Positions 319 to 26,852 of a stretch of DNA of 32,126 nt are shown in pieces. This DNA comes from Candidatus Aenigmatarchaeota archaeon (GTDB lineage: Archaea; Aenigmatarchaeota; Aenigmatarchaeia; CG10238-14). Within the stretch, counting starts at the first letter, position 1. Each line of letters starts with the position of its first letter. The translations under genes were made by a program, and so were the position numbers. Below the pieces are notes generated by a model that made no database searches, was not told the DNA's origin, and was given only the letters and a program-made list of their open reading frames with translations. The stretch lies in NCBI GenBank assembly GCA_038999265.1, contig JAWAAR010000006.1, positions 1 through 32,126 of the forward strand, given 5' to 3'.

Positions 319-432
319 TCCCCCCGGCCGGGCTCGAACCAGCAACCTCACGGTTCCCGCGAACGCCTGCTGGTGATGATGCAAAACAGCAAACATCTAC
401 AGCCGTGCGCTCTACCATTGAGCTACAGGGGG
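319..432 (-). tRNA. tRNA-Tyr (GTA) with a 42-nt intron
   Basis: A full cloverleaf can be drawn on the minus strand. The acceptor stem CCCCCTG pairs with CGGGGGG (one T-G pair), the D stem is GCTC/GAGC, the anticodon stem is CACGG/CCGTG, and the T arm is GCTGG-TTCGAGC-CCGGC. The discriminator base is A. The anticodon loop is CTGTAG plus A38, giving anticodon GTA. The C1-G72 pair is the known identity element of archaeal tRNA-Tyr. Bases 355-396 interrupt the gene between positions 37 and 38, the canonical archaeal intron site, and would be removed by the bulge-helix-bulge splicing endonuclease. No CCA is encoded, which fits the CCA-adding enzyme gene at 16146. Confidence 0.95.
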
Positions 433-8942: not shown

Positions 8943-8975
8943 ATTTTTAAATTGTTATTGATAAAATATGAGTAG

Positions 8976-9076
8976 AGTCCCTTCGTCTAGCGGTCAAGGA
9001 TAGCGAGGGTTTCCCTATAAGGCTTTGGTCGCTGGGAGGATACCCGTTGACGGCGGTTCGAATCCGCCAGGGACTA
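8976..9076 (+). tRNA. tRNA-Gln (TTG) with two introns
   Basis: The acceptor AGTCCCT/AGGGACT with discriminator A and the A1-T72 pair are typical of archaeal tRNA-Gln. The D arm is GTCT/GGAT and the T arm GGCGG-TTCGAAT-CCGCC. No single intron gives a good anticodon arm. Removing 9006-9020 (after position 29) and 9029-9041 (between 37 and 38) yields stem GCGGG/CCCGT, loop CTTTGGA and a 73-nt tRNA. The first intron contains a GGG-TTT-CCC hairpin. In the second, loop bases CTTT can pair with GAGG near the intron 3' end, as expected in a bulge-helix-bulge. Position 29/30 is a known but rare noncanonical intron site. Intron boundaries are inferred. Confidence 0.85.
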
Positions 9077-23904: not shown

Positions 23905-23992
23905 GGGCCAGTAGATCAGCCTGGTAGATCGCATGCTTGGCATACTCTTTGGTCGATGCATGAGGCCTGGGGTTCAAATCCCCACTGGTCCA
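23905..23992 (+). tRNA. tRNA-Ala (GGC) with a 14-nt intron
   Basis: Acceptor stem GGGCCAG/CTGGTCC with discriminator A contains the G3-T70 wobble pair, the identity mark of tRNA-Ala. D stem GATC/GATC, anticodon stem CATGC/GCATG, T arm TGGGG-TTCAAAT-CCCCA. The loop reads TTGGCA up to position 37, giving anticodon GGC. Bases 23943-23956 form the intron between 37 and 38. No CCA is encoded. The next coding region starts one base after the discriminator. Confidence 0.93.
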
Positions 23993-26724: not shown

Positions 26725-26852
26725 GCAGGGGTTGCCAAGTCTGGTCAAAGGCGCAGGATTTAAAGATGCGAAACTCAGAATGCGAGACTTAAGAAAGACT
26801 TGGGATATCCTGTCTCTTAGTGAGTTCGTGGGTTCAAATCCCACCCCCTGCA
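26725..26852 (+). tRNA. tRNA-Leu (TAA) with a 42-nt intron
   Basis: Acceptor stem GCAGGGG/CCCCTGC with discriminator A, D arm with GGTCAAAGGC, anticodon stem CAGGA/TCCTG, and the long variable arm with stem CTC/GAG expected of Leu. T arm GTGGG-TTCAAAT-CCCAC. The loop reads TTTAAA to position 37, anticodon TAA. Bases 26765-26806 are the intron between 37 and 38. Inside it, ATGCGAAACTCAGA is followed directly by the related ATGCGAGACTTAAGA. Confidence 0.95.

Follow-up and report, generated by a model that had tools for sequence, protein, structure and literature searches.

Interruption of archaeal tRNA genes at the 29/30 site, tRNAs with several introns, and sequential intron removal are already known (PMC4090602, PMC3218864, PMC8450103). 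In the Thermoproteales and other archaea, tRNA introns range in length from 11 to 129 nt, with a median of 15 nt, and canonical and non-canonical introns can occur within one tRNA gene (PMC4090602, PMC3218864, PMC4033280), with 29/30 as one of the listed non-canonical sites (PMC4090602). Closely spaced introns that need successive removal are provided for in the design of tRNAscan-SE 2.0 (PMC8450103). In Caldiarchaeum subterraneum, tRNA-Thr(GGU) has one or two introns, at sites 24/25 and 45/46 (PMC3293823), and in Nanoarchaeum equitans, tRNA-Gln(UUG) is assembled from trans-spliced halves that are split at 32/33 (PMC3218864). Our literature search, which was limited to open-access papers, turned up no publication on tRNA introns of the Aenigmatarchaeota.

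The locus analyzed here is a tRNA-Gln(TTG) gene on a 32,126-nt stretch of DNA (the window) from a member of the Aenigmatarchaeota, a DPANN phylum, whose genome (G000) comprises 791,539 bp on 54 contigs and is 97% complete. The gene shares the 29/30 site, the mixture of intron types, and the short intron lengths with the multi-intron pre-tRNAs of the Thermoproteales type, but differs from them in that it belongs to the Aenigmatarchaeota, encodes tRNA-Gln, has introns only 8 nt apart, and has a second intron that is complementary to the D-arm. As in the case addressed by tRNAscan-SE 2.0, the second bulge-helix-bulge (BHB) is predicted to form only after the first intron is gone; here, a long helix involving intron 2 may also fix the order of removal. 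As with the Caldiarchaeum tRNA-Thr(GGU), close relatives differ in intron presence at one tRNA gene, although the Caldiarchaeum introns lie at other sites and were tied to a possible transposable element (PMC3293823). N. equitans is likewise a DPANN archaeon in which the same isoacceptor is broken in the anticodon arm, but its gene is split into halves, while the exons found here are in order and contiguous within a single gene that is neither split nor permuted. The coordinates and sequence given for the gene in an initial annotation of the window proved correct, and its features are as follows.

8976 to 9076, plus strand: tRNA-Gln(TTG) gene, 101 nt, giving a 73-nt mature tRNA once two introns are removed
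8944 to 8952, plus strand: putative TATA-box-like element TTTTTAAAT, 24 to 32 nt upstream of the gene, read from the sequence
8976 to 9005, plus strand: exon 1, tRNA positions 1 to 29
9006 to 9020, plus strand: intron 1, 15 nt, site 29/30, AGGGTTTCCCTATAA
9021 to 9028, plus strand: exon 2, tRNA positions 30 to 37, GGCTTTGG, with the anticodon TTG at 9025 to 9027
9029 to 9041, plus strand: intron 2, 13 nt, site 37/38, TCGCTGGGAGGAT
9042 to 9076, plus strand: exon 3, tRNA positions 38 to 73
9000 to 9022, plus strand: BHB of intron 1, with core helix ATAG (9000-9003)/CTAT (9015-9018), 4 of 4 pairs; 5' bulge CG^A (9004-9006); 3' bulge AA^G(G) (9019-9022); and a short inner helix (9007-9008/9013-9014)
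9003 to 9047, plus strand: BHB of intron 2, with outer helix GCG+GG/CCCGT, which is complete only when intron 1 has been excised; core helix CTTT (9023-9026)/GAGG (9036-9039); bulges GG^T and AT^A; and an inner helix of at most one pair (bulge-helix-loop type)
8986 to 9036, plus strand: predicted 14-bp helix in which the D-arm (8986-8999) pairs with 9023-9036, a stretch of exon 2 that continues into the first 8 nt of intron 2; candidate outer helix for the BHB of intron 1

Every one- and two-segment deletion between the D-stem and the variable region was enumerated. Among the single deletions, none yielded a 5-bp anticodon stem together with T33 and R37. Three of the two-segment deletions did so, and of these three, only the removal of 9006-9020 plus 9029-9041 left both BHB core helices with 4 of 4 pairs. 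Closure of the stem is by itself weak evidence, since 401 of 1,000 shuffled arms permit some two-intron arm with 5 bp and T33/R37; both BHB helices were present as well in 3 of the 1,000, in no case together with a Gln anticodon. An independent cloverleaf score applied across all 36 tRNA genes that we found in G000 (a census made with Rfam and our own scripts) chose the identical two introns, and ARAGORN reads the spliced 73-mer as tRNA-Gln(ttg). The proposal that removing these two segments yields a five-pair anticodon stem and a 73-nt tRNA is thus borne out by the enumeration, the cloverleaf score, and ARAGORN. As read from the sequence, three of the four bulges (the 5' one of intron 1 and the two of intron 2) match the BHB pattern of 3 nt with the cut after the second nucleotide; the fourth, on the 3' side of intron 1, is relaxed and can be drawn as 3 nt with an adjoining G.G mismatch or as 4 nt. 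Splicing in silico restores a standard tRNA with which the intron-free relatives agree. At the level of sequence, we therefore consider it confirmed that this is a real tRNA-Gln(TTG) gene with two mini-introns, at sites 29/30 and 37/38, and we infer that both are spliced. Among the 36 tRNA genes found, it is the only one with two BHB introns. Default-mode ARAGORN and an Rfam scan of the window both missed the gene, a warning that double-intron tRNA-Gln genes can be missed or misread by simple tRNA finders.

For G000 and, in equivalent form, for a congener (G002), the intron mode of ARAGORN gives a different solution, in which in G000 a single 17-nt intron (9006-9022) leaves an anticodon stem TAGCG/CGCTG and an 18-nt variable arm. 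The statement in the initial annotation that the arm cannot be closed with one intron was, to this extent, too strong. However, the one-intron fold requires a distorted D-arm together with a long variable arm, which is not a tRNA-Gln trait, and its BHB core has just 2 of 4 pairs. In addition, the same ARAGORN mode calls the more distant homologs of like architecture from G026, G047, and L107 as Arg or Pyl, and the uninterrupted genes of relatives fit the two-intron product and not the single-intron one. Single-intron folds, sought by enumeration and with ARAGORN, were rejected, and we regard this reading as very improbable compared with the presence of two introns.

Comparison with related tRNA-Gln genes, which the initial annotation had proposed, also argues for two introns. 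The predicted spliced arm, ATAGCGGGCTTTGGACCCGTTGAC, is present uninterrupted and letter for letter in four genomes of the family (G004, G008, G010, and G011). The congener G002 has both introns at the same sites, with lengths of 17 and 13 nt, and its mature tRNA is identical to that of G000 at 71 of 73 positions. A second congener, G001, has an intron-free tRNA-Gln(TTG) at what is apparently the same locus (downstream of what seems by eye to be the same gene), with an identity to G000 of 59 of 73; since this tRNA body is more divergent, gene replacement and intron loss are equally possible. Across lineages, the intron-1 core helix takes the forms ATAG/CTAT, ATAC/GTAT, ATGG/CCAT, ATGC/GCAT, and ATAA/TTAT, and in 14 genes, all 28 pairs at positions 26 and 27 are retained, compared to a mean of 17.7 on re-pairing, a difference that the kinship of the genes makes optimistic. 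The BHB core helix has 4 of 4 pairs in most homologs. Thus, the two introns at 29/30 and 37/38 are upheld by the congener, by the uninterrupted relatives, and by covariation.

Within the phylum, we also found the double architecture in G009, G026, G027, and G047, of which G027 was read as 29/30 by analogy (automatic segmentation put its intron 1 two bases earlier, and its core has 3 of 4 pairs). The 29/30 intron occurs alone in G024, and the 37/38 intron occurs alone in other genomes of the phylum. Repeating the pattern search across the whole phylum brought no gain, as phylum and class are represented by the same 156 genomes. In a scan of named genomes, the 29/30 plus 37/38 arrangement was found beyond the phylum in Jingweiarchaeum (L107), one genome of the Nanoarchaeota (L112), and one of the Woesearchaeota (L126), with longer-intron versions in Geothermarchaeota and Nitrososphaeria. 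Double-intron tRNA-Gln genes of this type are thereby extended to the Aenigmatarchaeota and other DPANN lineages, and while the 29/30 intron described in the initial annotation stands, its description as rare should be softened, since this site is among those catalogued in other archaea (PMC4090602) and tRNA-Gln genes of several phyla are also interrupted there. Alpha-proteobacterial and Pseudomonas matches in the same scan look like chance and were set aside. Separately, tRNA-Gln genes of several relatives have insertions inside the D-arm (L040, L043, L045, L046, L083, L094, and L101); these are probable further non-canonical introns, in which case tRNA-Gln would be interrupted at differing sites across the phylum.

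The unspliced gene has an Rfam score of 37.8 bits, the lowest of the 36 tRNA genes in G000. This score and the intron-free gene of G001 at the same locus could point to a decayed pseudogene, with CAA read by another tRNA. However, a second tRNA-Gln(TTG), which the initial annotation had named as part of what would count against its reading, was not found among the 36 tRNA genes of this 97% complete genome. The acceptor stem, D-arm, and T-arm are intact and, after splicing, so is every arm; the nearly identical mature tRNA of G002 coexists with retention of both introns; and the pairing of the introns is maintained despite base changes. We therefore consider decay highly unlikely. In the 28 open reading frames of the window, CAA is used 133 times and CAG 63 times; since CAA is common and no other TTG gene was found, the gene should be essential, and we conclude that this tRNA-Gln(UUG) gene is probably both functional and essential. 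From the sequence, it is very likely a functional gene whose two BHB introns are cut by the tRNA splicing endonuclease (EndA) of the genome and whose exons are joined by the ligase RtcB.

The arrangement of the two BHBs predicts an order of removal. The anticodon stem, which is the outer helix of the intron-2 BHB (GCG+GG/CCCGT), is absent until position 29 has been ligated to position 30; intron 1 would accordingly leave before intron 2. On this structural model, prior removal of intron 1 is probable, and ordered splicing of both introns is plausible. The initial annotation had raised alternative folding through GCGA and TCGC, and this pairing does exist and extends to 5 bp (AGCGA/TCGCT), but it is not the main alternative, because TCGC takes part in 14 contiguous pairs with the D-arm. 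In the most stable predicted fold of the precursor, these pairs join D-arm sequence TCTAGCGGTCAAGG (8986-8999) to CTTTGGTCGCTGGG (9023-9036), and the 14-bp helix directly flanks the core helix of intron 1. We propose that, before intron 1 is excised, exon 2 and the adjoining first half of intron 2 may pair with the D-arm, that this long helix would act as the outer helix presenting the intron-1 BHB, and that intron 2 would in this way serve as a splint for removal of intron 1. We put this proposal forward tentatively, as a model that is more doubtful than the introns themselves. If it is right, the gene would be a compact and testable example of tRNA introns that leave in order, one perhaps aiding removal of the other.

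Computed energies are consistent with such a helix while also complicating the subsequent step. With both introns present, the rod that includes the intron-1 BHB has an energy of -35.2 kcal/mol, versus -19.6 for the D-arm plus the intron-2 BHB. With intron 1 removed, the long helix (-34.6) is still better than the cloverleaf with the intron-2 BHB (-27.0), so refolding would have to be helped. The mature cloverleaf is itself not the computed minimum, which makes folding energies a weak guide; the minimum-energy fold also favors an AGGG/CCCT hairpin over the core helix of intron 1.

Part of the long helix is built into tRNA-Gln independently of introns (GGYCAAGG of the D-loop with CTYTGG), and intron 2 supplies the remaining pairs. 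Across nine double-intron genes, complementarity between the D-arm and the first half of intron 2 extends to 62 of 72 positions, compared to 39.7 +/- 3.4 for shuffled sequences, a value for which a one-base offset was allowed post hoc and which shared intron ancestry inflates. It is also possible, and in our judgment somewhat favored, that the introns are real and the complementarity has no role, arising from shared descent of a short intron consensus and from the pairing that the D-loop and anticodon loop of tRNA-Gln have in any case; this reading competes solely with the splint part of our explanation. In its favor, the second introns look related across lineages (roughly TC-R-Y-T-R-G-R-R-G-A), and a swap test of the helix was nearly flat (6.75 versus 6.41); because D-arm sequences hardly vary, this test is uninformative and true covariation for the splint is lacking. 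Geothermarchaeota-type double-intron genes are without the complementarity (3 to 5 of 8). In contrast, complementarity in the double-intron genes exceeds that of genes with only a 37/38 intron (permutation P = 0.0006), including when these are limited to short introns of similar length (P = 0.01), and when the genus of the window is left out and the first two bases of the intron are kept constant, the signal remains (P = 0.0001); both results speak against a complementarity that has no role.

Processing of these introns would depend on EndA and RtcB, and G000 has one gene for each. Its EndA is a 180-amino-acid open reading frame with PF01974 and PF02778 (L071:1264-1806, contig C5), and in many genomes of the phylum, the short EndA is the only PF01974 gene. 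We compared 40 short EndA frames of the phylum (L071, L131-L140, L142, L144-L160, and L162-L172); other families of the phylum have longer EndA-like proteins, of about 400 amino acids. Where A. fulgidus has its catalytic lysine (K287), these short frames carry Thr, Ser, or Ala, and some of them have a lysine one residue later, whereas the catalytic Tyr and His are retained. The G000 protein has T157 at this site and retains Y110 and H126, and so departs from the standard catalytic triad. In ARMAN-2 EndA, changing the catalytic lysine to alanine abolished cleavage, and an I243-E248 loop lies near loops that confer broad specificity (PMC12397907). Between the Tyr and the His, all 40 short frames contain an insertion that includes a conserved G-[PRK]-K motif and occupies the same interval as that ARMAN-2 loop (PMC12397907). 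In EndA enzymes with a CSL or ASL specificity loop, a loop bearing a conserved lysine reaches the vicinity of the active site from the other subunit or unit. That the lysine of this insertion stands in for the missing catalytic lysine is a guess. The points of interest are thus a possible splint and an EndA that would cut relaxed BHBs without the usual catalytic lysine; we consider it unlikely that the full combination holds, with a splint, an ordered two-intron unit, and an EndA with a replacement loop lysine between Tyr and His.

The G000 genome is also rich in other BHB introns. By our own reading, 12 of its tRNA genes have a 37/38 intron. In the Gln(CTG) gene, a 29-nt BHB intron whose core helix is perfect interrupts the T-arm at 53/54 (L061, contig C22:1457-1558, minus strand), Thr(CGT) has a non-canonical intron at 30/31, and Gly(TCC) and Ala(CGC) have non-canonical introns in the D-arm. 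Judged from their sequences, Pro(CGG) probably has a non-canonical intron in the variable region, and Lys(CTT) probably has 20 extra nt inserted at 9/10, close to its 5' end (L065, contig C1, about 50900-50992), a locus for which Rfam reports a truncated gene only. Within the window, the segment at 23905-23992, called tRNA-Pro(tgg) by ARAGORN, reads as tRNA-Ala(GGC) after subtraction of a 14-nt 37/38 intron, and 42-nt 37/38 introns occur in tRNA-Tyr(GTA) (319-432, minus strand) and tRNA-Leu(TAA) (26725-26852).
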